A stretch of 64,000 bases of DNA, taken from NCBI GenBank assembly GCA_030655135.1, contig JAURWC010000020.1, positions 62,001 to 126,000 on the forward strand, given 5' to 3'. The DNA is from Hyphomicrobiaceae bacterium (GTDB taxonomy: Bacteria > Pseudomonadota > Alphaproteobacteria > Rhizobiales > Hyphomicrobiaceae). The translations under genes and the position numbers were made by a program. Below, piece after piece: positions 1 through 15,469 of the stretch; position 1 is the first letter of the stretch; every line of letters begins with the position of its first letter. The notes beneath the pieces are model-generated. The model was not told the DNA's origin and did no database searches. It worked only from the letters and a program-made list of their open reading frames with translations.

Positions 1-1788
1 TTCCTTGCCAGCCTCGCCGCGGTGTTGCCCGCGCACGGCGAAGACAAGCCGCTGTCTCCGGAGGAACGTGCCCTCAAGACGGCTATCGGCAAGCTCGACT
101 CGCAGCTGCCCTTGTCGTCGGCCGATCATACCGCGCTGAAGAAGGCGGCCGCTGCCCGCAAGCTGGAACAGCTGCGCGTCTGTGGCGATCCAGGCAACAT
201 GCCGCTCTCGGATATCAACCGCGCGGGCTACGGCAACAAGATCATCGAACTCGTCGCCAAGGAGATGGGCACCGAAGTGCACTACTTCTGGCGGCCGTAC
301 CTCGAGCGCGGCATCACGCGCCAGACGTTCGAGGTCAACGAATGCGACGTGCTGCTCGACATGCCGGTCGGATTCGAGCGCATCCTCACGACGACGCCGC
401 TGTACAAAACGACATACGTTCTGGCCTATCGCAACGATCGTGGCATCGAGATCGCCAACCTGGATGATCCCAAGCTGCACGACTTGAAGATCGGTGTGTT
501 CCAGACCTCCGGGCTGCGTACCGCGCTGAACAAACGCGGGGTTATAACAAACGTCTCGCTGCATGTCCTCAGCCACAACGCCGACCTGAAACCCGAGAAC
601 CAGCCGTACCAGCAAGTGCGGCAAGTGCTCGACGGCAAGCTGGACGTTGCCGGCATCTGGGGGCCGTTCGCCGGCTGGCTGAAGGCGCAAGGCGAGCCGC
701 TCACGGTCCTGCCAGTAAATATGTGGGAAGACGAAATCCCGCAGGAATTCGAGATCGCGATCGGCCTGCGCAACATCGATTGGATCTTGAAGTACAAGTT
801 CGATCTGGCGCTGGAAGCGCGCAAGGGAGAGATCGAGAAGACGTTGCGCGACTTCGGTGTGCCGTTGGTGCAATGTTCCAAGTGCGTGGTGCAGGGTGAC
901 CTGCCGGCGCACGGCATCTATACGGTGCCGTTGCAGCAAGCGGCAAATCCGGCCACTGGACAGCCGCTCGCCGTCGCGCCCGACCAACTCGTGACGCAAG
1001 AACGCGTCGAATCCTGGTTGAGCGACGGCGCTGACATCGACAGCGAACTGGCCAATGCCGTGTTGGCGGCCGACGCGCCGCGCATCAAGTTCCTCGTCTC
1101 CAAGGGCGCCGATCTCAACAAGCGCGACAGCCAGGGTTACACCGCTTTGCAAAGCGCGGCGCGGCACCGCAAGACCAAGCTGCTGGAAGAGCTCATCACG
1201 CTGAAGGCGGACGTCAACGCGACCGACCAGGACGGCTATGCCGCCCTGCATCACGCTATTTTGCGCGATCATCCCGACTCGGTACGAGTGCTGATGCAGA
1301 ACGGCGCGGACAGTAGCCTGCGCACAGCTAGCGGTTTCACACCGCTGGCTTTGGCCATCCTGGAGAACCACTACAAAGCCGCCGTTGCGCTCATCGAGAC
1401 CGGCGCGCCCGTCGACACGCCGGTCGGCGAAGCCAAGCTCACGCCGCTCATGCTCGCGGCCGGCTCGGAAGGCAACAAGCTGCACTTGGGCGCGGGCAAG
1501 CACCGCGTCGAGAAGTGGAATCCCAAAGATCCGGGCGTTCTGGAGATCACGCGCGCGTTGCTGGACAAGGGTGCCAACGTCAACGCCGTGAGCGAAACGG
1601 GCGTGACGGCATTGATCCTTGCTGCGTCACACAACAACGCGCCGATCGTCGGCATGCTCGCACAGGCCGGCGCTGATCCGTTGGTGAAGACCAAGGACGG
1701 GAAGACCGCAGCGGACCTAGCAAAGCAGAACGGCAACGAAGCCGTGGTCAGTCTCCTGCGGCTTCTGGAACAGGCAGGTAACAACTGA
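1..1788 (+). CDS. MxaJ-type periplasmic binding protein fused to ankyrin repeats (5' partial)
   Basis: The frame is open from base 1 and the first codons read FLASLAAVLPAHG, the tail of a signal peptide, so the true start lies upstream of the window. After a short linker, roughly residues 50-300 (counted from base 1) form a periplasmic solute-binding fold of the quinoprotein-dehydrogenase-associated type (LRVCGDPGNMPLSD, then a DVLLDMPVGFERIL stretch), the same family as MxaJ. From about residue 335 to the end there are about six ankyrin repeats (VSKGADLNKRDSQGYTALQ, LKADVNATDQDGYAALHHA, LDKGANVNAVSETGVTALI). MxaJ itself (13912-14811) has no such extension. It overlaps the next gene by one base. 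The role is inferred: a partner or chaperone of a PQQ alcohol dehydrogenase whose gene is probably upstream. Domain identity is fairly sure, function is not. Confidence 0.85.
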   Translation, partial: FLASLAAVLPAHGEDKPLSPEERALKTAIGKLDSQLPLSSADHTALKKAAAARKLEQLRVCGDPGNMPLSDINRAGYGNKIIELVAKEMGTEVHYFWRPYLERGITRQTFEVNECDVLLDMPVGFERILTTTPLYKTTYVLAYRNDRGIEIANLDDPKLHDLKIGVFQTSGLRTALNKRGVITNVSLHVLSHNADLKPENQPYQQVRQVLDGKLDVAGIWGPFAGWLKAQGEPLTVLPVNMWEDEIPQEFEIAIGLRNIDWILKYKFDLALEARKGEIEKTLRDFGVPLVQCSKCVVQGDLPAHGIYTVPLQQAANPATGQPLAVAPDQLVTQERVESWLSDGADIDSELANAVLAADAPRIKFLVSKGADLNKRDSQGYTALQSAARHRKTKLLEELITLKADVNATDQDGYAALHHAILRDHPDSVRVLMQNGADSSLRTASGFTPLALAILENHYKAAVALIETGAPVDTPVGEAKLTPLMLAAGSEGNKLHLGAGKHRVEKWNPKDPGVLEITRALLDKGANVNAVSETGVTALILAASHNNAPIVGMLAQAGADPLVKTKDGKTAADLAKQNGNEAVVSLLRLLEQAGNN

Positions 1789-2141
1789 TGGCGATGATCA
1801 GATCTATCAGCGTGGCGCTCCTGCTGACCGCAATAGGCGGCATCGTCCCGGTATGGGCAGCGGGAGGGCCAGAAGAAAAGGCAGCGAAGCGGGAGGACGG
1901 CATCTGGAAGTCGGCTATTCCGCCGCACGGCATGACGGGCGAATTTGGCAACCACGATCCCATCGGACTCGCGGCAGGTGCCGTCATCAAGACGGACTGC
2001 TCGCTGAACTGGGTCGATCCGGACGATCACAAACTTTACTGCTTCAACAGTGCCACGGCGGTCGAATACTTCAAGCAATGGCCAAAAGCCAACATCCGCC
2101 GTGCCCGCGCCTCTTGGGAGGCGTTGCGGCCCACGCAGTGA
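1788..2141 (+). CDS. Small exported YHS-like protein
   Basis: 117 aa with an N-terminal signal peptide (ISVALLLTAIGGIVPVWA). The ATG overlaps the stop of the ankyrin fusion gene by one base, so the two are translationally coupled. The C-terminal half carries a DCSLNW ... YCFNSATAVEYF pattern followed by a Lys/Pro-bearing tail, which resembles a YHS domain (a small metal-binding fold often seen near copper or heme proteins); only two Cys are present here, so metal binding is a guess. Its position between a binding protein and a cytochrome c gene points to a periplasmic role in the quinoprotein cluster. I do not know a gene name for it. Confidence 0.75.
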   Translation: MAMIRSISVALLLTAIGGIVPVWAAGGPEEKAAKREDGIWKSAIPPHGMTGEFGNHDPIGLAAGAVIKTDCSLNWVDPDDHKLYCFNSATAVEYFKQWPKANIRRARASWEALRPTQ

Positions 2142-2257: not shown

Positions 2258-2851
2258 GTGCTCAAGAAGATGACGAGGGACGTACTGGCACTGACACTGT
2301 TCGTGGCGCTCGCCAGTGCCAGCGGCTTCACGGCGCAGGCTCAGGAAGAGCCCAAAAAGGACGCCCCGGCTGCAGAAGCGCCGGCTGCTGCTGGCGAAAC
2401 GAAGGCACCTGAGGGTGACAAGGCCGCAGCTCCGGCTGCTGCAGCACCCGCCGGCGGCACGATGACGACCGCAGAGCGCGTGAAGGCCGCCGAAAAGGGC
2501 ACGCTGAAGAACCCTTACACGGGCGACGCGGCGGCAGCGGAAGAAGGCAAGAAGCTCTATCTCTCCAACAGCTGCAACGGCTGCCACGGCGGTGGCGGCG
2601 GCGGTGGCATGTGCCCGCCGCTGACGAACCAGATCTGGGTCTATGGCAGCGACGACGATACGATTTTTCGCCTGATCACGCTTGGCTCCAAAGACCTCCA
2701 GACCGCCGGCTACAAACGCAAGGGCAGCGAGAACGTCGTCGGCCCGATGCCGGCCTACAAGGACATCATCACCAAGGAAGAGGATCTGTGGAAGATCATC
2801 GCCTGGATGCGCACGCTGTGGACCCACGGCGACGCGCGGAAGAACTGGTGA
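2258..2851 (+). CDS. Periplasmic cytochrome c (c550, PedF/XoxG-like)
   Basis: 197 aa from a GTG at 2258 that has a GGGAAGGGA Shine-Dalgarno about 8 bases before it; an ATG at 2270 is the alternative. Layout: signal peptide (to about residue 28), an Ala/Pro/Lys-rich low-complexity linker (about 30-70), then one class I cytochrome c domain. The heme motif CNGCH is at residues 106-110, followed by a run of glycines, and the likely axial Met is in GPMPAY at about residue 164. This glycine-rich form is typical of c550 PedF and XoxG, which take electrons from lanthanide or calcium PQQ alcohol dehydrogenases. The mxa operon carries its own cytochrome cL (14849-15469), so this one probably serves a second dehydrogenase upstream of the window. 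Confidence 0.85.
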   Translation: MLKKMTRDVLALTLFVALASASGFTAQAQEEPKKDAPAAEAPAAAGETKAPEGDKAAAPAAAAPAGGTMTTAERVKAAEKGTLKNPYTGDAAAAEEGKKLYLSNSCNGCHGGGGGGGMCPPLTNQIWVYGSDDDTIFRLITLGSKDLQTAGYKRKGSENVVGPMPAYKDIITKEEDLWKIIAWMRTLWTHGDARKNW

Positions 2852-2946: not shown

Positions 2947-4245
2947 GTGGATGACCGGAAAGCCGACGGCCGGACCTTCATGCGCCGTCTCAGCCGCGCC
3001 GCTGCCTTCACGGCAGCCGTGCTCGTGTGTCTGGGCGCCGGAGTGCCGCACAGTGCTGCCAACCCCGAGGCCGCGGCCGGGCAGCCGCCCTCCGTTGCAC
3101 CGAACGGCGGCCCCGCGATCTCGGTCGAGATCAATTACCTCACCAAGCAGTATGCCGAGCCGCCGCCGCTGTCGCTGCTCGACAAGGTCTTGACCGACGA
3201 AGGCGTCCAGGGCGCGCGTGTCGCGCTCAAAGAAAACAATATGACCGGGCGGCTCCTCAATCATACCTACACCTTGAAAGAGACCATCGTTCCAGCCAAG
3301 GACGACATCGCCCCCTCGTTCAAGCAATTGCTCGCATCGGGCCAGCGCTTCTTCATCGCCAATCTCGAGCAGCCTGACCTGTTGGCCATCGCCGATCTGC
3401 CGGAAGCGCGCGATGCGATCATTCTAAACGTGCGCGCCAGCGACGACGAGCTGCGCGGCGCCAACTGCCGCGCGAACCTGTTTCACATCATCCCCAGCTA
3501 CGCGATGCGCGCCGATGCGCTGGCGCAGTACCTGCTGTGGAAGAAGTGGCGCCAGTGGCTGCTGATCGCCGGGCAGAAGCCTGAGGATCTCGCCTATGCC
3601 GCCGCCATCAGGCGCGCCGCGGGCCGTTACGGCGCCAAGATCGTCGATGAGCGCGTCTACAAATACGATGCCGGCTCGCGCCGCACCGATAGCGGGCATC
3701 AGCAGATCCAGACACAAATGCCGATGCTGACTCAGGGCGCGCCGCAGCACGATGTCGTCTTCGTGGCCGACATGAGCGAGACGTTCGGCGACTATCTGCA
3801 GTATCGCACGAGCGTGCCGCGCCCGGTCGTCGGCTCGCACGGGCTTCAGGCCTTGGCCTGGCACCGCTCGTTCGAGCAGTACGCGGGCACGCAGATGCAG
3901 AACCGCTTCGAACGCGCGGCCAACCGTGCCATGACCGAACGCGACTATACGGCCTGGCTCGGGATGCGGGTCTTCGGCGAAGCCGTGACCCGCATCAGCA
4001 AATCGGAAGCCGCCGACGTCCGCGCGTACATGCTGTCGAAGGAGTTCGGCGTCGCCGGCTTCAAGGGCCAGGGCATGACGTTCCGCCTGTGGGACAATCA
4101 GATGCGCCAGCCGATGCTGCTGTCCGGGGCGCGCGCGCTCGTCTCTATTTCTCCGCAGGACGGCTTCCTGCACCAGAAGTTCCTGACCGACACGCTGGGC
4201 TACGACGAACCGGAAACCCAGTGCCGCATGACGAAAGCCAACTGA
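2947..4245 (+). CDS. PQQ-alcohol-dehydrogenase-associated ABC-type substrate-binding protein
   Basis: 432 aa from GTG 2947; the ATG at 2980 (MRRLSRAAAFTAAVLVCLGAG) starts directly at a signal peptide and may be the real start. The remaining 390 residues resemble the branched-chain amino-acid type periplasmic binding fold that is found beside PQQ-dependent alcohol catabolism genes (ISVEINYLTKQYAEPPPLSL near the N-terminus, LFHIIPSYAMRADALAQYL in the middle). No ABC permease or ATPase lies nearby, so it probably works as a periplasmic accessory factor, not for classical uptake. The beta-propeller gene follows 25 bases later, the arrangement expected for this family pair. Confidence 0.85.
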   Translation: MDDRKADGRTFMRRLSRAAAFTAAVLVCLGAGVPHSAANPEAAAGQPPSVAPNGGPAISVEINYLTKQYAEPPPLSLLDKVLTDEGVQGARVALKENNMTGRLLNHTYTLKETIVPAKDDIAPSFKQLLASGQRFFIANLEQPDLLAIADLPEARDAIILNVRASDDELRGANCRANLFHIIPSYAMRADALAQYLLWKKWRQWLLIAGQKPEDLAYAAAIRRAAGRYGAKIVDERVYKYDAGSRRTDSGHQQIQTQMPMLTQGAPQHDVVFVADMSETFGDYLQYRTSVPRPVVGSHGLQALAWHRSFEQYAGTQMQNRFERAANRAMTERDYTAWLGMRVFGEAVTRISKSEAADVRAYMLSKEFGVAGFKGQGMTFRLWDNQMRQPMLLSGARALVSISPQDGFLHQKFLTDTLGYDEPETQCRMTKAN

Positions 4246-4270: not shown

Positions 4271-5242
4271 ATGAAACGCTGCCAAGCCGCACTTCTGTCC
4301 GCTCTTCTGCTGCCGGCACTTGCCCCGCCGGCCGCAGGCGCCACGATCTTCGTCAGCAACGAAAAGGACAACACCGTCACCGTCATCGACAGCGAGACGT
4401 TGAAGGTCGTCAAGACGATCCCCACAGGAGCCCGCCCGCGCGGCATGATCCTGACGCCGGACTTCAAAGAGTTGATCGTTTGCGCTGGTGACGACAACCG
4501 CCTCGACATCATTGACACCGACACGCTGGAAATCGTCCGCAGCCTCGATTCCGGCCCGGACCCCGAACTGCTGGACATCGACAGCAAGGGCGAGCGCATC
4601 TACGTCGCCAATGAAGACGACGGCATGGTGACCGTGCTGCAGAAGTCTGACGGCAAGGTGCTGGCGGAGATCACCGTCGGCGTCGAGCCGGAAGGCATGG
4701 CCGTCAGCAAGGACGACCGGATTACTGTTGCCACGTCTGAGGCGACGAGCATGGCGCACATCATCGACAACGCCAGCCTGAAGGTGGTCGCCAACATCCT
4801 GGTGGACTCGCGTCCGCGCGTCGCCGAGTTCACGCCCGACGGAAAGACCGTGTGGGTATCGTCCGAAATCGGCGGCACCGTCGCCGTGATCGACGGCACC
4901 ACCAACAAGATCGTCAAGAAGTTCGGTTTCGAGATTCCCGGCATCAAGCCCGAACTCATCCAGCCGATGGGCGTGCGCTTTTCCAACGATGGCAAGATCG
5001 CCTTCGTCGCGCTCTCGACCGCGAACCGCGTCGCTGTCGTCGATGCCGCGACCTACGAGGTGCGGGACTACATCGTCGTGGGCCAGCGGCCCTGGCACAT
5101 GCAGCTCGATCCGGAAGGCAAGAAGCTCTACGTCGCCAACGGCCTCACCAACGACATGACCGTCGTCGACGTCGCCACACTGAAGCCGGAGAAGTCGGTG
5201 CCTGTCGGCCGGCTGCCCTGGGGCGTCATGGTCAAGCCATAG
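4271..5242 (+). CDS. PQQ-catabolism-associated periplasmic beta-propeller (YVTN repeats)
   Basis: 323 aa. A signal peptide (LLSALLLPALAPPAAGA) is followed directly by YVTN/NHL-type repeats: IFVSNEKDNTVTVIDSETL, IYVANEDDGMVTVLQKSDG, VWVSSEIGGTVAVIDGTT, AFVALSTANRVAVVDAAT, LYVANGLTNDMTVVDVATL. With about seven units it should close as one propeller. This family is found with the preceding binding protein and PQQ dehydrogenases. The molecular function is not established. A second protein of the same length and fold is encoded at 21987-22958 behind mxaD, which suggests each dehydrogenase system here has its own propeller. Confidence 0.88.
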   Translation: MKRCQAALLSALLLPALAPPAAGATIFVSNEKDNTVTVIDSETLKVVKTIPTGARPRGMILTPDFKELIVCAGDDNRLDIIDTDTLEIVRSLDSGPDPELLDIDSKGERIYVANEDDGMVTVLQKSDGKVLAEITVGVEPEGMAVSKDDRITVATSEATSMAHIIDNASLKVVANILVDSRPRVAEFTPDGKTVWVSSEIGGTVAVIDGTTNKIVKKFGFEIPGIKPELIQPMGVRFSNDGKIAFVALSTANRVAVVDAATYEVRDYIVVGQRPWHMQLDPEGKKLYVANGLTNDMTVVDVATLKPEKSVPVGRLPWGVMVKP

Positions 5243-5252
5243 CGGGAACCTC

Positions 5253-5723
5253 ATGCGGCGGCAGCGTCAGTCTTGGATTGCCGTGCTGCCGCTTCTGGCG
5301 GCCACAATCGTCGCGTCGCTCCCCGCTGCCGCCAACGTTGCCATCGCACAAGTCATCCTAGGCCTTGATGATGAGGCGCCGCTCGCAACCGCAAAGCAGC
5401 CGGCGAGCGATGCCGTCCAATCCGGTATGTCCGCCATCCGCAAGCTGGTGCTCGACGCGCACACGCTGATTACGCATCGCCGTTTCGCACCGGACCAGGC
5501 GCGGCGCTTCTCCGCCGGCATCAAGCAGAGCGTCGCGGCCCTGAAGGCCGATCCGGCTGCTCCCGCGCTGGCGGATGTTCTTACGCTGCTCGACGATGGC
5601 GCGACGCAGATCGCCGCGCCCATGTCGGGAGACAGCCAGCTCGATGCGCTCGCAAAGTTCGAAACCGCGCTGGACCGCTACCCGCAACTCTTCAACGACC
5701 CTGAGTGGAAGCCGCTGCGCTGA
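5253..5723 (+). CDS. Exported protein of unknown function
   Basis: 156 aa with a signal peptide (AVLPLLAATIVASLPAAA). The rest is predicted helical (SGMSAIRKLVLDAHTLITHRRFAPDQARRFSAGIKQSVAALKAD) and has no motif I recognise. It begins 10 bases after the propeller gene, so it is most likely the next member of the same operon. Confidence 0.7.
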   Translation: MRRQRQSWIAVLPLLAATIVASLPAAANVAIAQVILGLDDEAPLATAKQPASDAVQSGMSAIRKLVLDAHTLITHRRFAPDQARRFSAGIKQSVAALKADPAAPALADVLTLLDDGATQIAAPMSGDSQLDALAKFETALDRYPQLFNDPEWKPLR

Positions 5724-5767
5724 CGCCGGCAGTGCCGCGGCAGCTCCAGATGATCGGGAGGACGACC

Positions 5768-6964
5768 ATGCCCAATGTGAACGCGCACCGCTCACGCCAG
5801 CTGCTGGCCATCACACGCGGCCGCATTGCCGGCGTCGCGTTGGCGGCCGGCCTAGGGTTCGCCGCGCCCGCTTATGCCGGCAATGGCGCCCCGCCCGCCG
5901 CTGCTGCAGCAGCGGCCGCGGCCGAAGAGCCATCCGTCGCATCCATCACCCTTACGGGTCACGCTGCCGATCTGTGGTGGGCCGATTTCAACCCCGACGG
6001 TACGCGCGCCGTCACAGCATCCAGCGATCGCACAGCGCGCATCTGGGATGTCGTCACGGGGCAAACGCTGCTCACGCTTTCCGGTCACGACGAAGCGGTG
6101 CGCGTTGCCATCTTCAGCCCGAACGGCGGGCAGATCGCCACCGCCTGCCGCAACGGGTTGGCAAAGATCTGGGATGCCAAGACCGGCAAAGAAATCGCGA
6201 CGCTGAACGGACACAAGGAAATGATCGAGGGCGTGGCGTTCAGCCCCGACAGCGAACGGCTGGTCACCGCGTCGCGGGACGGCTCGGCAATCCTCTGGGA
6301 CGCCAAAACGGGCAAGCAGCTCGCCGAACTCAAAGGCCATACGGAATGGCTGTCGGGCGTCGAGTTCAGTGCCGACGGCGCGCGCATCGTGACGTCGTCC
6401 AGCGACAAGACGGCCCGGGTGTGGGACGGCAAGACGGGCGCCGCCGTCATCACGCTCGAAGGACACGATGGCCTCGTCACCAGCGCCACGTTCAGCCCGG
6501 ACGGCACGCAGGTCGCGACGTCGTCGAGCGACAAGACCGGCCGGCTGTGGGACGCCAAAACGGGCCAAACGATCAAGACGCTCTCAGGTCACGAGCGCGC
6601 TGTTCTGCGCGCCGCCTACAGTCCGGATGGCGGCCGCGTCGTAACGGTTTCCAGCGACAAGACAGGCCGCATCTACGATACGGCGAGCGGCGACCTTGTG
6701 GCCAAGATGGAAGGCCATCACAAGCGGCTCATTCCCCGCGTGATGTACAGCCGCGACGGCACGCGCATCGTCACTGCCTCGCACGACAAGTCCGCTTCCG
6801 TCTGGGATGCCAAGACCGGCGCGCACATCGTAAAGCTCGCGGGCCACATGAAGGAAGTGGACGGCGCCGAATTCAGCCCGGACGGCAAAAAGGTTCTCAC
6901 CGCGTCCTACGACCGCACGGCGCGTGTCTGGGATGTGCCGGCCGCACCGCCGAAAGGCGAGTAG
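5768..6964 (+). CDS. Exported WD40 repeat protein, eight repeats
   Basis: 398 aa from ATG 5768, which has a GGGAGGACGA Shine-Dalgarno; an earlier in-frame start at 5705 would overlap the previous gene and lacks one. The N-terminus looks like a signal peptide followed by a poly-Ala linker (AGNGAPPAAAAAAAAA). Eight WD units follow, each opening with a GH (LTGHAADL, LSGHDEAV, LNGHKEMI, LKGHTEWL, LEGHDGLV, LSGHERAV, MEGHHKRL, LAGHMKEV) and closing with an IWD/VWD/LWD/IYD element. There are no other domains. It is probably a periplasmic scaffold; its place at the end of the quinoprotein accessory cluster is the only functional hint. Confidence 0.85.
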   Translation: MPNVNAHRSRQLLAITRGRIAGVALAAGLGFAAPAYAGNGAPPAAAAAAAAAEEPSVASITLTGHAADLWWADFNPDGTRAVTASSDRTARIWDVVTGQTLLTLSGHDEAVRVAIFSPNGGQIATACRNGLAKIWDAKTGKEIATLNGHKEMIEGVAFSPDSERLVTASRDGSAILWDAKTGKQLAELKGHTEWLSGVEFSADGARIVTSSSDKTARVWDGKTGAAVITLEGHDGLVTSATFSPDGTQVATSSSDKTGRLWDAKTGQTIKTLSGHERAVLRAAYSPDGGRVVTVSSDKTGRIYDTASGDLVAKMEGHHKRLIPRVMYSRDGTRIVTASHDKSASVWDAKTGAHIVKLAGHMKEVDGAEFSPDGKKVLTASYDRTARVWDVPAAPPKGE

Positions 6965-6980: not shown

Positions 6981-7048
6981 TTCTCCGGAAGCACGCGCTT
7001 CTGCGTGTCTGGCCGAAAGCCGGCGCACACTTCTCCGCAAGCACTCAG
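6981..7048. repeat. Degenerate copy of the 56-bp dispersed repeat
   Basis: Pieces TTCTCCGGAAGCAC and CACTTCTCCGCAAGCACTCAG around a GGCCGAAAGCC core match, with changes, the unit repeated at 32315-32541. It lies between two convergent genes and covers the stop codon of the minus-strand response regulator. Confidence 0.5.
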
Positions 7049-7701
7049 TGGCTCTTCGAGCCCGCGGGCATGATGCCTGGGAGATGCTGAATGGCCAGGC
7101 GCATCAACTCGGGTAGCGAGCCAACGCGGAGCTTCGTCTTCAGCAGCGAACAGGTATTGGCGACTGTCTTGTAGCTGACGCGCAGTTCGTCGGCGATGGC
7201 GCTATAGGGCTTGCCGTCGGCCAAGAGCGACAACGTCTGCAGCTCGCGTGCGGTCAGCACCTTCAGCGGGTTAGACGACCCGCGCGCCTCCATGAAGACG
7301 ACATCGGAGGCAAGGTCGCTGGACAGATACCGCTTGCCCTGCCGGACGCGGTCGAAGGCCCGGGCGAATTCCTCGAACGGCGTGTCCTTGAGGATGTATC
7401 CGGTCGCGCCCGCCTCAATGGCACGCGAGACGACGACGGGATCGCGGTGCATGGAAAAGACGAGAATGGGAATGTCGCGGTCGAGCCGCCGCAAGCGGCG
7501 AATGAAGGAAATGCCGCCGAGCGCGCCGGACTTCAGCGCGAGGTCGACGATCAACACGCTCGGCTTTTGCTGCCGGTAGAGGCGAAAGCCGCGCGACAGC
7601 GTCGAGGACTGGTGGATGGTGCTGGCGCCGGCGTCCTGAAGCAACTGGCGGCAACCCTGGAGAACGATCGGATGGTCGTCGATGACGAGGACGCTGGTCA
7701 T
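7045..7701 (-). CDS. NarL/LuxR-family response regulator, MxaX-like
   Basis: 218 aa from ATG at 7701. The N-terminal receiver (VLVIDDHPIVLQGC, phosphoacceptor Asp in VLIVDLAL, Lys in GYILKDTPFEEF) is followed by a LuxR-type helix-turn-helix (LTARELQTLSLLADG ... VSYKTVANTCSLLKTKL). Its ATG overlaps the TGA of nothing on its own side, but the upstream kinase gene stops inside it (ATGA overlap at 7698-7701), so kinase and regulator are one unit. In Paracoccus a kinase-regulator pair of this type (MoxY/MoxX, also FlhS/FlhR) sits upstream of the methanol dehydrogenase genes and is needed for their expression. A paralogue is at 10213-10896. Confidence 0.85.
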   Translation of the reverse strand: MTSVLVIDDHPIVLQGCRQLLQDAGASTIHQSSTLSRGFRLYRQQKPSVLIVDLALKSGALGGISFIRRLRRLDRDIPILVFSMHRDPVVVSRAIEAGATGYILKDTPFEEFARAFDRVRQGKRYLSSDLASDVVFMEARGSSNPLKVLTARELQTLSLLADGKPYSAIADELRVSYKTVANTCSLLKTKLRVGSLPELMRLAIQHLPGIMPAGSKSH

Positions 7702-9206
7702 GAGGTCAGGCTTTCGCTGGAAAGAACGCCGCGGGGTTTTTCGGTGTGGGGTAGAGGCGTGGGAACAGGTATGGCGATGGTGATGGTGGTGCCGCGCGGC
7801 TCCGCGCGCGTGATAAGGCATGTTCCGTCGACGGCGAGCACGCGTTCGCGCATTGACGAGAGGCCGAAGCCGATGGGCGTGCGTTCGGCTATTCCGGTGC
7901 CGTCGTCCGTCATCGTCAGCACGAGATGGCTTGGTGCGCGTGCATTTCCAGCGCGCAGCATCAAGCGGGCATCGATGTTCTCAGCCGCGCCGTGCTGCAG
8001 TGCATTGGTGAGGCCCTGCTGCAGGCAGCGGTAAATGGTGAGCTCGATCGCCTCGCCGTAGCGCGGCGCAATCGGCTCGATGGCGAGGAAGAAGTTCACA
8101 CCGGGATAGCGCTTCTCGAACTCGCTGACGAGATCGGAGAGGAGCTCTTCGAGCGAGACGCGGCCGATGGCGATAGGACGTAGAGATTTGAGCCGTCCCC
8201 TGTTGAGCGACTTCAGGCGCTCGGCCGAGTCGAGAATTGCCGACACGCGCTCGGTGACGTTGTCTCTCAAGGTTGCTTCCGCGGTCTTGACGATCGTGAG
8301 GATGGACCCGGCATTTGCAGTGATGCCGAACAGGCAAGGCCCTGCCTCATCGTGCAGTTCGTTGGCGATTTGGCGGCGCTCATCCTCCTGGACCGTGATG
8401 AGGTGGCCCAACAGTTCGCGGTTTTCCGCGCGCGACGCGTCCAGAGCGCTGGCCAGCGCGTTGAAGCGGCTGGCGATCGGCTGCAATTCCTTGATGCGCG
8501 GGGGCGCGAGGCGCGTGCCGTAGTGGCCCACTTCAAGCTCCTGCATGCCGCCGGTGAGGGTCTTGAGCGGATTGAGCACGCGACCCAGCACCCAGTAGAG
8601 CATTGCGAACGTCAGGCTGACCACGATGCCGGCGACGAGCGAGACTTCCGACAGGTCGCCCCACACCTCCGCGATCTCGTCGGCGGGCTCACCCGTGATA
8701 TGGAACGTGCCGATCTTGCTGCCGGCGAGCATAATGGGGACTTCGCGCGTCTCAACGTCTCCGTAGACCAAGCGCTCGAACCAGGCCGGGGCCCGCTCCG
8801 GTCCGTCGGCCGACGCGTCCGCAACGACTGGCGGCAGAATGACGGAATGGTGCCCTTTTAGATCGGTGAAGGATGTACGGATGTGGCGGAAGTAGCGAAG
8901 CTGCTGCGATACGTGAGCCAGCAATAACTCGGCCGACGTCGTCTCGGGCAAACCACGCACGGTCTCGCCAATCAGGCGCTCGGCAATCTGCAACGTCGCC
9001 TTCACCTCGACGCTGGCGCGATCATTGGCGCGCAAAACCGCCAAGGCGCTGGCAATCATTGCCGCGATCAAGCAGACGATGGCGATGGCGATGAGCAGGT
9101 GGGCGCGGATGGGGAGATGCGACCACCAAACGAGGATTGCAGAGCGTGGCTTTTGACCCGTGACCACGCCGGCACCTGTTGGGCTTTGGCTCAATTGGAT
9201 TGTCAC
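7698..9206 (-). CDS. NarX-like membrane sensor histidine kinase, MxaY-like
   Basis: About 502 aa if it starts at GTG 9206; the frame stays open to 9332, so the start is uncertain. Order of parts: TM1 (HLLIAIAIVCLIAAMIASAL), a periplasmic loop of about 130 residues, TM2 (VSLVAGIVVSLTFAMLYWVLG), HAMP, the HisKA_3 dimerisation helix with the phospho-His in ANELHDEAGP, and an HATPase domain (LTNALQHGAA, MTDDGTGIAE, GFGLSSMRERV). Such kinases pair with NarL-type regulators, and the partner overlaps it by 4 bases. The periplasmic loop could sense a methanol-oxidation product or the redox state; the ligand is not visible from sequence. Confidence 0.85.
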   Translation of the reverse strand: MTIQLSQSPTGAGVVTGQKPRSAILVWWSHLPIRAHLLIAIAIVCLIAAMIASALAVLRANDRASVEVKATLQIAERLIGETVRGLPETTSAELLLAHVSQQLRYFRHIRTSFTDLKGHHSVILPPVVADASADGPERAPAWFERLVYGDVETREVPIMLAGSKIGTFHITGEPADEIAEVWGDLSEVSLVAGIVVSLTFAMLYWVLGRVLNPLKTLTGGMQELEVGHYGTRLAPPRIKELQPIASRFNALASALDASRAENRELLGHLITVQEDERRQIANELHDEAGPCLFGITANAGSILTIVKTAEATLRDNVTERVSAILDSAERLKSLNRGRLKSLRPIAIGRVSLEELLSDLVSEFEKRYPGVNFFLAIEPIAPRYGEAIELTIYRCLQQGLTNALQHGAAENIDARLMLRAGNARAPSHLVLTMTDDGTGIAERTPIGFGLSSMRERVLAVDGTCLITRAEPRGTTITIAIPVPTPLPHTEKPRGVLSSESLTS

Positions 9207-9380
9207 GCTGATTGACCAAGCTGCAGCCCGGCCACTGAAGGGCCAAAGGCGCGGTTTATGAATTGGATAAAGGCAGTCCCGCACGCGTTTCGCGGCACCA
9301 GAGGCCGCGAAACATGTCGAGCTGCGACGCACTTAAAACTAGCTGACATGCCCTTTCGCGCAAGGCATGCCCCGCAGATT

Positions 9381-9393
9381 GGGAATTTTTCCC
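9381..9393. promoter_or_regulatory. GGGA-N5-TCCC inverted repeat, copy 1
   Basis: GGGAATTTTTCCC between the kinase gene and the divergent gene at 9557. The same 13-mer occurs at 25398. A candidate site for the NarL-type regulators encoded nearby; this is inference from position and symmetry only. The intergenic region (about 9207-9556) also has a perfect CCTCCA/TGGAGG hairpin at 9405-9420 and the palindrome GTTCGCGAAC at 9424-9433. Confidence 0.45.
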
Positions 9394-10212: not shown

Positions 10213-10896
10213 TCAGCGTCCGGTGCCGATTGGGCCCGGAATGTGCTGGATGGCGATACGCATCAACTCGGGGAGGTTGCGGGCCCCGAGTTTGATCTTG
10301 ATCTGCGATGTGGTGTTGGCGACCGTCTTGTAGCTGACGCCCAACTCTTCCGCGATGGCGCCGTAGGATTGGCCCGACGCGATCAGAGAGAGCGTCTGCA
10401 GTTCGCGCACCGAGAGCGCGCGCAGCGGGTTTGCGAAATTGCGCGTTTCGTTGAATGCAATTTCCGATGCCACATCGTGGCTCAAGTATTGGCGGCCCTG
10501 GCGTACGATGTGGAACGCCTTGAGGAATTCCTCCGGCGGCGCATCCTTCAGCACGTAGCCAGTAGCGCCCGCCTCCAGCGCACGGCGAACGATCGTGGGA
10601 TCGGAATGCATGCTGAGAACGAGGATCGGCGTCCGCTTGTCATGCAGCCGAAGCCGGCGAACGAGCGATAGCCCGCCCAACAGTGCCTGCCGGATCGTAA
10701 GATCGACGATGATCATTGCGGGCTTGTGCGCGCGATACTGGCGGTAACCGTCTGCCAGGCTGCCCGCCATCAGAACACGCGCGCCGGCATCTTCCAGCGT
10801 GCGCGCGCAGCCTTGAAGCACGAAGGGATGATCGTCAATCACCAGAACGCAGGCAGGAGCGCCGGGAAACTGTTGCTGGTTCGGTTGGCTTTTCAT
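10213..10896 (-). CDS. Orphan NarL/LuxR-family response regulator, paralogue of 7045-7701
   Basis: 227 aa from ATG at 10896 (the frame is open further upstream, but that part crosses a repeat and has no coding character). Receiver domain VLVIDDHPFVLQGC with Asp in MIIVDLTI and Lys in GYVLKDAPPEEF; helix-turn-helix LSVRELQTLSLIASG ... VSYKTVANTTSQIKIKL. It aligns with the regulator at 7045-7701 along its whole length, down to shared stretches such as ELQTLSL and VSYKTVANT, so the two arose by duplication. It has no kinase of its own next to it, and it stands upstream of mxaF on the opposite strand. Confidence 0.85.
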   Translation of the reverse strand: MKSQPNQQQFPGAPACVLVIDDHPFVLQGCARTLEDAGARVLMAGSLADGYRQYRAHKPAMIIVDLTIRQALLGGLSLVRRLRLHDKRTPILVLSMHSDPTIVRRALEAGATGYVLKDAPPEEFLKAFHIVRQGRQYLSHDVASEIAFNETRNFANPLRALSVRELQTLSLIASGQSYGAIAEELGVSYKTVANTTSQIKIKLGARNLPELMRIAIQHIPGPIGTGR

Positions 10897-10945
10897 GGCC
10901 GTGATCTGTCTGGCATGTTGCAAGTTAGGCTCGTTCTTTGTTGGC

Positions 10946-10994
10946 GTGCTTCTTATCGGCAAACCGCTGCACACTTTGTCCGGAAGTTCTCTAG
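10946..10994. repeat. Single copy of the dispersed 56-bp repeat
   Basis: From GTGCTTCTTATCGGCAAACC to GTCCGGAAGTTCTCTAG. It differs by a few bases from the tandem units at 32315-32541. It lies between two minus-strand genes. Confidence 0.7.
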
Positions 10995-11003
10995 ATCGAT
11001 TGA

Positions 11004-11528
11004 TCACCGGCGCACGCCATAGCGTGACGTCAATGTCGCCAGCGCGTCTGCGCGTTCAATCTGGCTGGCCCTCAAGTTGTAATAGTGCTGGCTCACGGCG
11101 CCGAAGCCTTCCGTTTGCCCGATCTCTCCGGCGACGCGGGTCAAGTCGTCGAGGACGTCGGCAGCCCGTTCGATAATGCCGATATCCTTGAGCATATCTT
11201 CGACCTGGACGGCACGGTTGGCGATCATGCGCTCGCTCTCACGGTAGATTTTTTTGGCTGCGTCGAGATTGGAAGCGATGCGCTTCACCTCCGGATCGTG
11301 CAGCGGCTTCACCTCCGGCAGGCTCCGGCTCGTTATCCACTGCGCGGGCGTGATCTTGCTGCTGGGCTGCAGCCACGTCTCTTGATGTGCCGCCGTCTGC
11401 GGTGCGCCCGTCTCCGTACTCGCTGGCGTATCCTGCGCTCGAGGGGCGTCATCATCACAGCTGACAAGAAGGTGCCCGCAGGCGACAAGCGCCAAGCCTG
11501 CAGCAAGCCGATAGGTAGGCATGATCAT
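11004..11528 (-). CDS. Predicted lipoprotein of unknown function
   Basis: 174 aa (two ATGs, 11528 and 11522). A lipoprotein signal is visible: GLALVACGHLLVSC followed by Asp residues. The rest is helical (DVLDDLTRVAGEIGQTEGFGAVSQHYYNLRASQIERADALATL). No family recognised. It is the gene nearest upstream of mxaF, on the opposite strand, so its promoter region is shared with mxaF. Confidence 0.7.
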   Translation of the reverse strand: MIMPTYRLAAGLALVACGHLLVSCDDDAPRAQDTPASTETGAPQTAAHQETWLQPSSKITPAQWITSRSLPEVKPLHDPEVKRIASNLDAAKKIYRESERMIANRAVQVEDMLKDIGIIERAADVLDDLTRVAGEIGQTEGFGAVSQHYYNLRASQIERADALATLTSRYGVRR

Positions 11529-11951
11529 TGCGAAGTCCGGTCTTCAATCGACGTTTCGCTGCGGGCGCAACGAGTTTTCACGCTGACTGAAACCACACCC
11601 TCGCGAATTTGAGGCATCACAATGATGTTATAAAGTAACTCTTCCTGACATGGCCGAGCGCATTCGGGAATTGGTTGCCATCAATTCCCGCCGAGCTTTG
11701 CAACATGGACTAAAGACCAACGTTGGTTGACCTTCTAGCGTCCACCCCAAGGCAGACGGCCTACTCATGCTCGTTTTGAGCCGCTGACGAAAAGCCGCGA
11801 GCCGACGCACGGCGCAACAGTTCCAACACAGGAATGCTGGACCGCCGAGCCACTTCAAAGAGACGGACTTCACAAAACGCCCGCTGCAACGCGGCGCGTC
11901 GATGAGGATACTTGTCTTACGCCTTGGGACGGATAACGCGAGGTTTTGGGA
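11529..11951 (+). promoter_or_regulatory. mxaF upstream control region
   Basis: 423 bases without a gene, between a minus-strand lipoprotein gene and mxaF. I could not place a -35/-10 pair with confidence. Two symmetric elements stand out: 9-bp arms CGGGAATTG and CAATTCCCG separated by 8 bases (11665-11690), and the 12-bp palindrome ACCAACGTTGGT (11716-11727). A weak AGG at 11941-11943 precedes the mxaF ATG. Confidence 0.5.
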
Positions 11952-13817
11952 ATGACGAAACGCCTCCAAATGGCGCTGTTTGCAACGGCATCATGCTTTG
12001 CGCTGACAGCAACGACGGCCATTGCCAACGACAAGCTCAACGAGCTGTCTAAGAGCAATGAAAACTGGATCATGCCAGGCAAGAACTACAGCTCGCAGAA
12101 CTACAGCCCGAACAACAAGATCAACGCCGAGAACGTGAAGGGCCTGAAGGCCGCCTGGTCGTTCTCGACCGGCCTGTTGCATGGCCACGAAGGCACCCCG
12201 CTCGTCGTCGACGGCGTGATGTACGTTCATACGTCGTTCCCGAACAACACGTTCGCGCTCGACTTGAACGATCCCGGCCACATCCTGTGGCAGCACAAGC
12301 CGAAGCAGGATCCGGCTGCCCGCGCGGTTGCCTGCTGCGACCTCGTGAACCGCGGTCTGGCCTACTGGCCGGGTGACGGCAAGGCGCCGGCTCTGATCAT
12401 CAAGACGCAGCTGGACGGCCATCTGGTCGCTCTCAACGCCAAGACCGGTGAAGAGTACTGGAAGGTTGAGAACGGCGATATCAAGGTCGGCCAGACGCTG
12501 ACGCAGGCGCCTTACGTGATCAAGGACCTCGCACTCGTTGGTTCGTCGGGCGCCGAGCTCGGCGTTCGCGGTCACACCACTGCTTATAACGTCAAGACCG
12601 GTGAGCAGGTCTGGCGCGTGTACGCAACGGGTCCGGATGAGGAAGTCGGCCTGGCTGACGACTTCAACAGCGCCAACAAGCACTACGGCACCAAGGGCCT
12701 CGGCACCGGTACGTGGGAAGGCGACGCCTGGAAGATCGGCGGCGGCACGAACTGGGGCTGGTACGCCTACGACCCCGACACCAACCTGTTCCACTACGGC
12801 TCGGGCAACCCTGCTCCGTGGAACGAGACGATGCGTCCTGGCGACAACAAGTGGACCATGACCATCTGGGGTCGCGATGCCGACACGGGCAAAGCCAAGT
12901 TCGGCTATCAGAAGACGCCGCATGACGAGTGGGACTACGCCGGCGTGAACGTCATGATGCTCTCTGAGCAGAAGGACAAGGATGGCAAGATGCGCAAGCT
13001 TCTGACCCATCCGGACCGTAACGGCATCGTCTACACGCTTGATCGTGAGAACGGCGATCTCATCTCGGCCAATAAGCTGGATGACACCGTCAACTGGGTG
13101 AAGCAGGTCGACCTGAAGACCGGTCTGCCAAATCGCGATCCTGAGTTCGGGACGCGTATGGACCACAAGGGCAAAGAGATCTGCCCGTCGGCCATGGGCT
13201 ACCACAACCAGGGCCACGACAGCTACGATCCTGAACGTCAGCTGTTCTTCATGGGCATCAACCACATCTGCATGGACTGGGAGCCCTTCATGCTTCCGTA
13301 TCGTGCCGGCCAGTTCTTCGTCGGTGCGACCTTGTGGATGTATCCCGGCCCGAAGGGCGATCGCCAGAACTACCTCGGTCTCGGTCAGATCAAGGCCTAC
13401 AACGCGATCACCGGCGACTACAAGTGGGAGAAGATGGAGCGGTTCTCTGTTTGGGGCGGCACCTTGGCCACCGCAGGCAACTTGGTGTTCTACGGAACGC
13501 TGGACGGCTTCCTCAAGGCTCGCAACTCCGACACCGGCGAACTGCTCTGGAAGTTCAAGCTTCCCTCGGGCGTGATCGGTCACCCGATGACGTATGAGAA
13601 GGACGGCACGCAGTACGTCGCCATCATGTACGGCGTCGGTGGCTGGCCGGGCGTTGGTCTCGTGTTCGACCTGCAGGATCCGACCGCTGGTCTGGGTGCA
13701 GTGGGTGCCTTCAAGAACCTCGCCAACTACACCCAGATGGGTGGCGGTCTGATGGTGTTCTCGCTTGATGGCAAGGGCCCGTACGACAACCTCGAAACGG
13801 GCGAATACAAGGGCTGA
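11952..13817 (+). CDS. mxaF: Methanol dehydrogenase large subunit, calcium type
   Basis: 621 aa from ATG 11952. Periplasmic PQQ enzyme that oxidises methanol to formaldehyde and passes electrons to cytochrome cL. The signal peptide ends ATTAIA; counting the mature chain from the next Asn, the adjacent Cys pair in AVACCD falls on 103-104, as in the known enzyme. The catalytic Asp is in WDYAGVN; the residue two after it is Ala, whereas lanthanide XoxF enzymes have Asp there, so this is MxaF, not XoxF. Other landmarks: [12 protein letters not shown] (metal/PQQ site) and the tryptophan docking repeats. The gene differs from its neighbours in richer, more biased codon use, as expected of an abundant protein. 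Followed by mxaJ. Confidence 0.97.
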
Positions 13818-13834
13818 TCCAGCCTTCACACGAT

Positions 13835-13860
13835 ACCGCGGCGCTAGCCAGCGCCGCGGT
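13835..13860 (+). terminator. Strong hairpin between mxaF and mxaJ
   Basis: Perfect 11-bp arms ACCGCGGCGCT and AGCGCCGCGGT with the loop AGCC, 18 bases after the mxaF stop. No T-run follows. It probably protects the mxaF transcript 3' end and lowers read-through into mxaJGI. Confidence 0.65.
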
Positions 13861-13911
13861 ACTCACCCCGCTAAGTCTGCAGCCGACCGAACCCCCCCGG
13901 TGTTGATAATC

Positions 13912-14811
13912 ATGATGCGTTTCGCTACGCCCAAAACGATTGCCACTGCTCTTATCGTTGGCACCCTTGCCACGCCGCTGTGCGCGCAAGTGCGCAACAC
14001 GGCGCAGGATCCGAACGCTGAAAAGGCCGTCGTTGTCCCTGCCGATCCGTCGGTGCTGCGCATTTGCGCTTCGGCCAATGAACTGCCGATGTCCAAGAAC
14101 GACGGCAGCGGCTTTGAAAACAAGATTGCCGAAGAGCTGGCGAAAGCCATGGGCCGTACGGCGAAGTTCGCCTGGTTCCCCAAGGAATCGATCTATCTCG
14201 TTCGCGATCAGCTCGACGTGAAAGCCTGCGATGTCGTCATGGGTGTCGACACCGGCGATCCGCGCGTGCTGACGACGAAAGCCTATTATCGCGCGCCGTA
14301 CGTTTTCATCGTGCGCAGCGACAGCAAGTTGAACATCACCGGTTGGGACAGCGCCGATTTAAAGAAAGCCGGCAAGATCGGCTTCACGCCGGGTTCGCCG
14401 CCCCAGGTGATGATGGAGAAGACGGGTCTGTTCCAGGACCACTTCAACTACATGCACTCGCTGTCGAACTTCAAAGACAAGCGCAACAAGTTCACGCGTG
14501 TGCCGCCCGATCGCATGGTCGGCGAAGTCGCCGACGGCACCGCAGACGTTGCGATAAACTTCGCCCCGGAAGTGGCGCGCTATGCCAAGGCCGCCGGTGG
14601 CAAGGTCAAGCTGATCGTCATTCCCGACAACAACGTGCGCGATGATGGCGAGAAGGTTCCGCATCACTTCGACCAATCCTTGGCTGTTCGCAAGGACGAC
14701 GCAGCGCTGCAGGCCGACCTGAATGCCGCGCTCGATAAGGCCCGGCCCAAGATCGATGAGATCCTGAAGGACGAAGGCATTCCCCTGCTGTCGCAGTTGC
14801 CGCGGTCGTAG
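13912..14811 (+). CDS. mxaJ: Methanol oxidation periplasmic protein MxaJ
   Basis: 299 aa; ATG 13912 and 13915 are both possible. A signal peptide (ATALIVGTLATPLCA) is followed by a bilobal solute-binding fold: LRICASANELPMSKNDGSGF, then DVVMGVDTGDPRVLTTKAYYRAPYVF and a TADVAINFAPEVARYAK lobe. MxaJ is needed for an active methanol dehydrogenase and is always encoded behind mxaF; it likely helps to assemble or mature the enzyme. The same family forms the first part of the fusion protein at 1-1788. Confidence 0.93.
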   Translation: MMRFATPKTIATALIVGTLATPLCAQVRNTAQDPNAEKAVVVPADPSVLRICASANELPMSKNDGSGFENKIAEELAKAMGRTAKFAWFPKESIYLVRDQLDVKACDVVMGVDTGDPRVLTTKAYYRAPYVFIVRSDSKLNITGWDSADLKKAGKIGFTPGSPPQVMMEKTGLFQDHFNYMHSLSNFKDKRNKFTRVPPDRMVGEVADGTADVAINFAPEVARYAKAAGGKVKLIVIPDNNVRDDGEKVPHHFDQSLAVRKDDAALQADLNAALDKARPKIDEILKDEGIPLLSQLPRS

Positions 14812-14848
14812 TGAGACAACCATAAAAAAAATGAAGGGAACGCTACCG

Positions 14849-15469
14849 ATGACCGTTGTTCGCCTGTCGCTTACGATCGCAGCGACTTTGGTATGCACGC
14901 AAATGGCGCTGGCCGCCGAAGATTTCCGTCACACGATTACCGGCGAACCGCTGAAGGTTATGGAAGAGAGCCCTGCAGAGGGGCGCGACACACCGGCAGT
15001 CAAGAAGTTCCTGGAAGACGGCACCAATCTGTACATCGAGAACAAGGGCTGCCTGCCCAAGGGCGAGGAAGTTTATCTGACGGCGTGCTCTGGTTGTCAT
15101 GGACACGTGGGTGAGGGAAAACTCGGCCCCGGCTTGAACGACGCCTATTGGACCTATCCGAAGAACGCGACGGATAAGGGTTTGTTCGAAACCATCTTCG
15201 GCGGCGCACAGGGCATGATGGGTCCGCACGGCAACCATTTGGAGCTCGACGAGACGCTGAAGCTTATCGCCTGGATTCGCCACATCTACACCGGCAAAAC
15301 AGAGGAAGCCGAATGGCTGACGGACGAGCAGAAGAAGTCTTTCAAGACCTACACGGCCGCCCACGCCCCAGAATCCGCTGAGGCCCAGGCTGAGGCCGAC
15401 AAGAAGATCGCCGAAGCCGCCGAGAAAAAGGAAGGCGGAGACGATCAATGCAAAGTTTCCGGAGGCTAG
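14849..15469 (+). CDS. mxaG: Cytochrome cL, electron acceptor of methanol dehydrogenase
   Basis: 206 aa from ATG 14849. An ATG at 14831 is also in frame, but the AAGGGA just after it makes a good Shine-Dalgarno for 14849, and the signal peptide begins there (VVRLSLTIAATLVCTQMALA). One heme site, CSGCH, about residue 84; the axial Met is probably in the GAQGMMGPHG segment. The long acidic and Lys/Ala-rich C-terminal tail is common in cytochrome cL. It takes electrons from MxaF in the periplasm and hands them to a class I cytochrome c. No oxidase for that cytochrome is in this window; the oxidase encoded here is of the quinol type. Confidence 0.93.
   Translation: MTVVRLSLTIAATLVCTQMALAAEDFRHTITGEPLKVMEESPAEGRDTPAVKKFLEDGTNLYIENKGCLPKGEEVYLTACSGCHGHVGEGKLGPGLNDAYWTYPKNATDKGLFETIFGGAQGMMGPHGNHLELDETLKLIAWIRHIYTGKTEEAEWLTDEQKKSFKTYTAAHAPESAEAQAEADKKIAEAAEKKEGGDDQCKVSGG

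Follow-up and report, generated by a model that had tools for sequence, protein, structure and literature searches.

The gene that opens the window, by which is meant the whole stretch of 64,000 nucleotides analysed here (C71:62001-126000 of a 4.06 Mb genome of a Hyphomicrobiaceae bacterium), raises the question of why a periplasmic binding protein related to XoxJ and MxaJ should be joined to ankyrin repeats, and which partner these repeats would serve. The function of XoxJ and MxaJ is itself an open question of lanthanide-dependent methylotrophy, and an arm that is separable from the binding domain makes the question testable. The original prediction took the product, here termed XoxJ-Ank, for a periplasmic MxaJ-family protein that could scaffold a PQQ dehydrogenase together with the cytochrome encoded from position 2258 and the neighbouring propellers. 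The answer tentatively favoured here is that XoxJ-Ank is the XoxJ dedicated to the XoxF1 dehydrogenases of Proteobacteria, and that the arm adds another docking surface, the likeliest partner of which is XoxF1 itself.

No mention of a XoxJ-ankyrin fusion was found in the literature searched, most subscription journals lying outside that search, and the word 'ankyrin' is absent from PMC4109929, from the description of a XoxF1 structure (PMC8546591) and from a survey of XoxF systems (PMC10875860). The cluster of Methylotenera mobilis 13 was described in 2014, according to excerpts of the report, as an xoxFJG island gained by lateral transfer, with relatives among alphaproteobacterial, gammaproteobacterial and NC10 genes (PMC4109929). 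XoxF1 enzymes are characterised as little known in excerpts of a metaproteomic study of a mine mat, where XoxF1 was the dominant clade and proteins were assigned to Hyphomicrobium zavarzinii, Methylotenera mobilis, Dokdonella koreensis and others (PMC8999231). Work in which XoxF1 is expressed by itself could overlook its partner.

Two domains in one exported protein

The list of open reading frames and its translation place both domains of XoxJ-Ank within a single open frame at positions 1-1788 of the window, as originally claimed. A further 36 bp precede the window, and the whole gene (L007:15965-17788; contig C71:61965-63788) starts with GTG and encodes 607 aa. Its N-terminus is a hydrophobic Sec-like leader, called by eye, of the sequence MKHHTFSRLLSGFLASLAAVLPAHG, and a hydrophobic leader is present in 76 of the 77 XoxJ-Ank homologues in which 34 or more residues precede the domain, the lone miss beginning at a contig edge. 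On the strength of these leaders XoxJ-Ank is predicted to be exported to the periplasm, the location first proposed for it.

In a search of the whole protein, upstream bases included, both parts exceed the cut-offs of their families. TIGR03871 matches residues 69-302 with a score of 222.3 bits, above its cut-off of 212.15 (222.4 bits over residues 44-277 in the translation of window positions 40-1785), whereas TIGR03870, the MoxJ/MxaJ equivalog model, reaches only 105.9 bits against a cut-off of 258.1. As the latter score lies far below its cut-off, the binding domain is XoxJ-like and MxaJ proper is ruled out as its identity; of the proposed MxaJ membership, the kinship between MxaJ and XoxJ is what holds. 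TIGR03871 is a curated NCBIfam model, the name of which covers the XoxJ half only. Ank_2 (PF12796) scores 103.6 bits against a gathering score of 27.3, and ankyrin families cover about residues 365-600; matches to T4SS effector and MzaA models of NCBIfam were set aside as ankyrin-repeat cross-matches far below their cut-offs. The C-terminal ankyrin part, first estimated at about 250 residues, is slightly larger and comprises some 260 residues in seven repeats.

An AlphaFold2 model built with 63 sequences (mean pLDDT 89.9) shows a binding-protein core, an ill-defined linker and then seven helix pairs, with a pTM of 0.60 at which the mutual orientation of the two halves is not fixed. Structure comparison superimposes the first half of the model onto XoxJ (6onp; Z 25.2, 1.6 Å over 209 residues) and MxaJ (5sv6; Z 26.0, 2.0 Å over 229), and matches the second half to ankyrin chains with Z up to 26.7. 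The model of XoxJ-Ank from M. mobilis 13 likewise has seven repeats.

Features of XoxJ-Ank and of its nearest neighbours (window positions unless marked L007)
Feature	Position	Strand	Basis or remark
xoxF1 upstream of XoxJ-Ank	L007:13923-15803	same strand as XoxJ-Ank	
End of Sec-type leader, XoxJ-Ank	1..39	+	leader by eye; cleavage site inferred
N-terminal helical extension ahead of binding-protein core	40..168	+	model helices 7-20 and 27-39
XoxJ-type periplasmic binding-protein domain (TIGR03871)	169..870	+	hmmscan, structure comparison
CxxC (CSKC) closing the binding domain, then VVQGDLPAHG	874..885	+	alignment of fused domains
Linker, first 12 residues conserved, rest variable with low pLDDT	886..999	+	model, conservation
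Ankyrin arm, cap helix and seven repeats	1000..1785	+	hmmscan, model, conservation
Ankyrin repeat starts	R1 1042, R2 1126, R3 1225, R4 1324, R6 1591, R7 1690	+	
Ankyrin repeat R5	start about 1426, insertion near 1465-1539	+	
117-aa protein	1788..2141	+	no Pfam/NCBIfam match; overlaps XoxJ-Ank stop by one base
c-type cytochrome, proposed XoxG of the XoxF1 system	2258..2851	+	MoxG model 41.8 bits, below cut-off 147.8
TIGR03863 periplasmic binding protein of PQQ-alcohol dehydrogenase systems	2947..4245	+	NCBIfam
YVTN/YncE-type beta-propeller	4271..5242	+	Pfam; conserved neighbour in Alphaproteobacteria

The dehydrogenase upstream and the genes around it

The PQQ dehydrogenase expected as a neighbour was found directly upstream of XoxJ-Ank, on the same strand and outside the window, at a distance of 161 bp. 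Its best solved relative is 7o6z, the neodymium XoxF1 of Methylacidimicrobium thermophilum (863.5 bits), followed by 4mae (546). An Asp described as diagnostic of XoxF1 in excerpts of Schmitz et al. (PMC8546591) corresponds to D209 of the upstream enzyme, where it stands beside the metal-binding Glu and is invariant in the 8 rows of alignment A1, both copies from this genome included. In the wider alignment this Asp occurs in 86 of 92 XoxF1 and in 0 of 19 other dehydrogenases, and the lanthanide Asp (DYD) in 92/92 XoxF1. The upstream enzyme has both residues and is assigned to the XoxF1 type of the predicted lanthanide methanol dehydrogenases. Another such pair is located 9 kb farther upstream (xoxF_A, L007:5019-6905; XoxJ-Ank_A, L007:7047-8894), and the same genome encodes a stand-alone XoxJ next to another dehydrogenase, at C22.

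The gap between xoxF1 and XoxJ-Ank (L007:15803-15965) holds strong hairpins just 3' of the xoxF1 stop codon (one shuffle in 200 equally stable, z -2.8), which perhaps set the ratio of the two products. A consensus search revealed no sigma-70 promoter within L007:13600-18400.

Further downstream the window contains mxaFJG (11946-15469), a separate Ca-type system: the second Asp position of MxaF is occupied by Ala, and the scores of MxaJ and MxaG exceed their cut-offs. The MxaJ of this genome is thus its own gene (13909-14808; TIGR03870 352.5 bits), and a tie of XoxJ-Ank to the mxa cluster was dropped, its neighbour being the XoxF1 upstream. Positions 5705-6964 encode a WD40-repeat protein with relatives at 10 of 75 XoxF1 loci (best 80 of 202 stretches), which is probably exported because it has an N-terminal hydrophobic leader. 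A histidine kinase together with a LuxR-type response regulator (7045-9332), and a second response regulator (10213-11007), were named by eye from their translations, and two-component genes are close to many other XoxF1 loci too. Besides the two XoxJ-Ank genes the genome has Ank_2 only in L001 (G000:C15:12889-13164), a 133-aa protein without a leader whose neighbour was recognised by eye as a TctC-like binding protein; contamination of the genome is put at 2.82%, and this contig may be foreign to it.

XoxJ-Ank behind XoxF1 in three classes

Named genomes were scanned with a XoxF1 alignment, and the best 80 of 202 related stretches yielded 75 loci with 77 distinct XoxF1 genes from Alpha-, Beta- and Gammaproteobacteria; because of this selection, more distant XoxF genes lie outside the view of the scan. 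The genera include Hyphomicrobium, Filomicrobium, Methyloceanibacter, Methyloligella, Chthonobacter, Methylotenera, Methylophilus, Hydrocarboniphaga, Solimonas, Nevskia, Dokdonella, Rudaea and others, along with Methylorubrum rhodinum. For 73 of the 77 genes the contig is long enough downstream to be testable, and in 66 of these 73, still within the best 80 of 202 stretches, XoxJ-Ank follows within 1 kb, so that XoxF1 is the dehydrogenase adjoining the fusion; the count takes in L115, where a frame break splits the XoxJ half. As most of the 94 XoxF1 genes collected overall that fall outside the named scan were picked for a long XoxJ frame, the rate to quote is the named 66/73.

The seven testable misses (L082, the first tandem copy of L089, two copies of L090 with a broken gene, L091, L092 and L106) are extra or decayed copies. 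All of their genomes, L089 and L092 being one genome, have a XoxJ-Ank match elsewhere in a frame of at least 602 aa. Behind the intact xoxF1 of L082 (Filomicrobium sp. ih4) XoxJ-Ank has decayed to a 129-aa ankyrin remnant at 9001-9390, and two further copies in that genome are intact. In L089 and L090 (Methyloceanibacter), a tandem of two xoxF1 genes stands ahead of one XoxJ-Ank. Ten genomes with exceptional or truncated loci were searched whole, of which nine gave a XoxJ-Ank match (seven in frames of at least 565 aa, one partial and one frame-broken); none was present in one MAG, that of L097.

Among the matches listed for the order, of which 397 genomes were covered, frames with TIGR03871 and a length of about 600 aa or more occur only in the families f1 (its own), f31 and f10, and in every fetched long-frame locus where the contig reaches far enough, XoxF1 lies directly upstream. 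The one other long frame, at G010:C6, belongs to a stand-alone XoxJ whose frame is over-long and which adjoins another dehydrogenase. The surroundings of stand-alone XoxJ in 20 stretches from the same order contain an ankyrin match or XoxF1 in 0/20 cases; 14 of the stretches have another methanol dehydrogenase and 6 have none. In PLSDB, 245 plasmid records matched but none spanned 80% of the query in one place, and hence no fused homologue was found there.

Overall, the presence of XoxJ-Ank directly behind XoxF1 in very different bacteria suggests that XoxF1 has its own dedicated and so far unstudied partner. XoxJ-Ank beside xoxF could thereby serve as a marker by which XoxF1 systems are distinguished from those of the XoxF5 or Mxa type.

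One clade of fused domains under purifying selection

Two ways in which the fusion might have been illusory were raised with the original prediction, and neither was encountered. Alignment A2 comprises the window protein and 62 of 67 fused frames, five having been dropped as truncated, misframed or near-identical, and all 63 members have matches to TIGR03871 as well as to Ank_2 at E <= 0.001 (two HMMs were trained on 22 sequences that are themselves fused). A frameshift or mis-joined frame is ruled out because both domains are present in 63/63 members and the fusion recurs in three classes. Nor are the homologues always separate genes: those beside XoxF1 are fused, apart from a few broken copies. 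In Methyloceanibacter marginalis (L103) a frame of 1028 aa joins XoxJ-Ank to the TIGR03863 protein; this longer fusion was left out as evidence because of an apparent frameshift inside the final repeat.

In a tree of the XoxJ domain, built without fragments from L090, L115 and L071, a single branch with support 100/99 separates 85 fused from 35 stand-alone domains; as all of the stand-alone sequences come from the same order as the window, the tree shows a single fused clade rather than the full history. The two groups also differ in the CxxC at the domain end, which is present in 86/86 distinct fused domains and in 0/35 stand-alone ones at that place, and of which the middle residues vary (SK, SR, SN, AE, DT, NE).

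The ankyrin part is under purifying selection, with a median dN/dS of 0.19 as compared with 0.16 for the XoxJ domain (19 independent pairs). Its first repeat contains Glu 336, Asn 339, Asp 345 and Arg 348 in 62, 58, 61 and 63 of 63 sequences, residues which we take to lie outside the usual ankyrin consensus. Conservation of the concave face of the repeats does not significantly exceed that of the convex one (mean JS 0.398 versus 0.348, p 0.075), and a conserved concave binding face was therefore dropped. That the arm is a passenger such as a mere stabilising tail, a view with which this lack of significance would agree, is nevertheless highly improbable given the low dN/dS, the seven repeats in alpha- and betaproteobacterial models and the retention of the arm across classes.

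The partner of the arm

It is proposed that XoxJ-Ank is exported together with XoxF1 and that its binding-protein half docks the enzyme and helps it to become or stay active, by analogy with XoxJ and MxaJ. The arm, tethered by the variable linker behind the CxxC, may also contact XoxF1 on another face or on the other protomer, so that one XoxJ-Ank would clamp XoxF1 during cofactor loading or electron hand-over. The binding events, the activating role and XoxF1 as the partner of the arm are all what we infer. That the first half should bind XoxF1 follows from its homology to XoxJ and MxaJ: in excerpts of work on M. extorquens grown with La, loss of xoxJ equals loss of xoxF1 and xoxF2 (PMC7391723), which makes xoxJ necessary for XoxF-dependent growth, and an MxaF/MxaJ complex has been solved (9ism). 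Passages in the citing literature also suggest that stand-alone XoxJ binds and activates its dehydrogenase.

For the arm itself, the distances between ankyrin parts follow those between XoxF1 enzymes with a partial correlation of 0.43 (0/500 permutations; 52 operons, XoxJ and cytochrome held fixed), a pointer rather than proof because the permutations leave shared descent in. The distances follow the cytochrome more weakly (0.13, 10/500 permutations, 52 three-gene operons), the cytochrome stretch used being short and the co-variation possibly reflecting shared descent.

The first rival of an arm that contacts XoxF1 is the scaffold envisaged by the original prediction, in which the arm docks the operon cytochrome c (XoxG, window 2258) and XoxF1 is linked to its electron acceptor through XoxJ-Ank. 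The order xoxF1, XoxJ-Ank, cytochrome recurs in three classes, and cytochrome relatives are found at 55 of 75 named loci (best 80 of 202 stretches). By alignment positions, a cytochrome gene lies within 2.5 kb downstream of 56 of the 77 XoxJ-Ank genes with room for it, including 43/43 of those beside xoxF_B-type genes. The weak co-variation between arm and cytochrome fits this bridge, as does the proposal, taken from excerpts of PMC9728263, that MxaJ is an adapter between the dehydrogenase and cytochrome cL. However, the arm is kept in 21/77 genes without a linked cytochrome (20/30 beside xoxF_A-type genes among them), although a cytochrome encoded elsewhere in the genome could serve these, and the arm tracks XoxF1 more strongly. 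The cytochrome thus stands as a frequent operon member while the scaffold around it is weakened to a doubtful possibility; the retention of the arm without a linked cytochrome and its co-variation with XoxF1 together favour a contact between arm and XoxF1.

The cysteines of the two proteins offer a further elaboration. XoxF1 has Cys pairs that are lacking in all 19 other dehydrogenases: C231/C241 in 91/92, C306/C314 in 92/92, C101/C107 in 55/92 and C443/C455 in 52/92 sequences. The members of each pair are always both present or both absent, as disulfides would be, and the verrucomicrobial XoxF1 7o6z, the sole one from Verrucomicrobia in the alignment, is without these extra pairs. Together with the CxxC of XoxJ-Ank they allow, but do not show, a role in disulfide maturation. 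It is conceivable, if unlikely, that XoxJ-Ank is a private maturase-clamp needed by proteobacterial XoxF1, where the CxxC would serve the XoxF1-specific disulfides and the ankyrin arm would grip the enzyme. If true, this would constitute a third dehydrogenase-XoxJ class, next to those with a free XoxJ and with XoxGJ fused to a cytochrome, and it would define the proteobacterial XoxF1 clade as a whole.

A related reading makes XoxJ-Ank a maturation factor for disulfides or the cofactor, with the CxxC acting on the extra disulfides of XoxF1 and the arm holding a folding enzyme. The restriction of the CxxC to fused domains and of the Cys pairs to XoxF1 other than 7o6z would both agree with such a factor, which we nonetheless consider rather unlikely: the two middle residues of the CxxC vary, and the half that bears it has the XoxJ/MxaJ fold, which is not known for thiol exchange. 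The CxxC lies behind the C-terminal helix and may be merely a structural disulfide, and it may have just lineage in common with the XoxF1 Cys pairs.

Finally, the arm might anchor the enzyme to another partner in the envelope, namely a regulator, a terminal oxidase, the YVTN propeller or the TIGR03863 protein. At loci that lack the cytochrome, the TIGR03863 protein or the propeller is often encoded by the next gene with a match, which at several loci overlaps XoxJ-Ank by 4 bp, and two-component genes are near many loci. These two proteins are, however, close neighbours of XoxJ-Ank mainly in Alphaproteobacteria: the TIGR03863 gene occurs at 29 of 75 loci, none named as Beta- or Gammaproteobacteria, whereas the arm is found in all three classes (best 80 of 202 stretches), and the propeller has 25-35% identity or is unmatched in Beta- and Gammaproteobacteria. 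Such an anchor is improbable. The 117-aa protein encoded next to XoxJ-Ank has relatives at 8 of the 75 loci (best 80 of 202 stretches).

Comparison with known systems

XoxJ of M. extorquens AM1 (6onp) resembles XoxJ-Ank in fold, in export, in its operon place between xoxF and cytochrome and in exceeding the TIGR03871 cut-off. Stand-alone XoxJ, as compared within one order, differs in having neither ankyrins nor the CxxC at the domain end, and the XoxJ-Ank domains form a clade apart. MxaJ (5sv6; 9ism) shares the fold and the operon logic, but XoxJ-Ank falls far below the TIGR03870 cut-off and mxaFJG are separate genes.

Cytochrome cGJ or XoxGJ of verrucomicrobial methanotrophs is a XoxJ-type domain joined to a cytochrome domain. 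Both XoxGJ and XoxJ-Ank thus add a second functional domain, which is a cytochrome in the former and ankyrin repeats in the latter, and in XoxJ-Ank systems, unlike in XoxGJ, the cytochrome is a separate gene. Ankyrin proteins that serve a redox enzyme are represented by the periplasmic AnkB with the catalase KatB in Pseudomonas aeruginosa and by Cj1386 with the catalase KatA in Campylobacter; these differ from XoxJ-Ank in lacking a XoxJ-type domain and in the kind of enzyme. MxaI, a small subunit, bears no relation to ankyrins. Excerpts on XoxF1-MxaI of Methylomirabilis oxyfera describe a XoxF1 that takes an extra protein partner, and to this extent the complex is similar to the proposed pairing of XoxF1 with XoxJ-Ank (PMC6028718).
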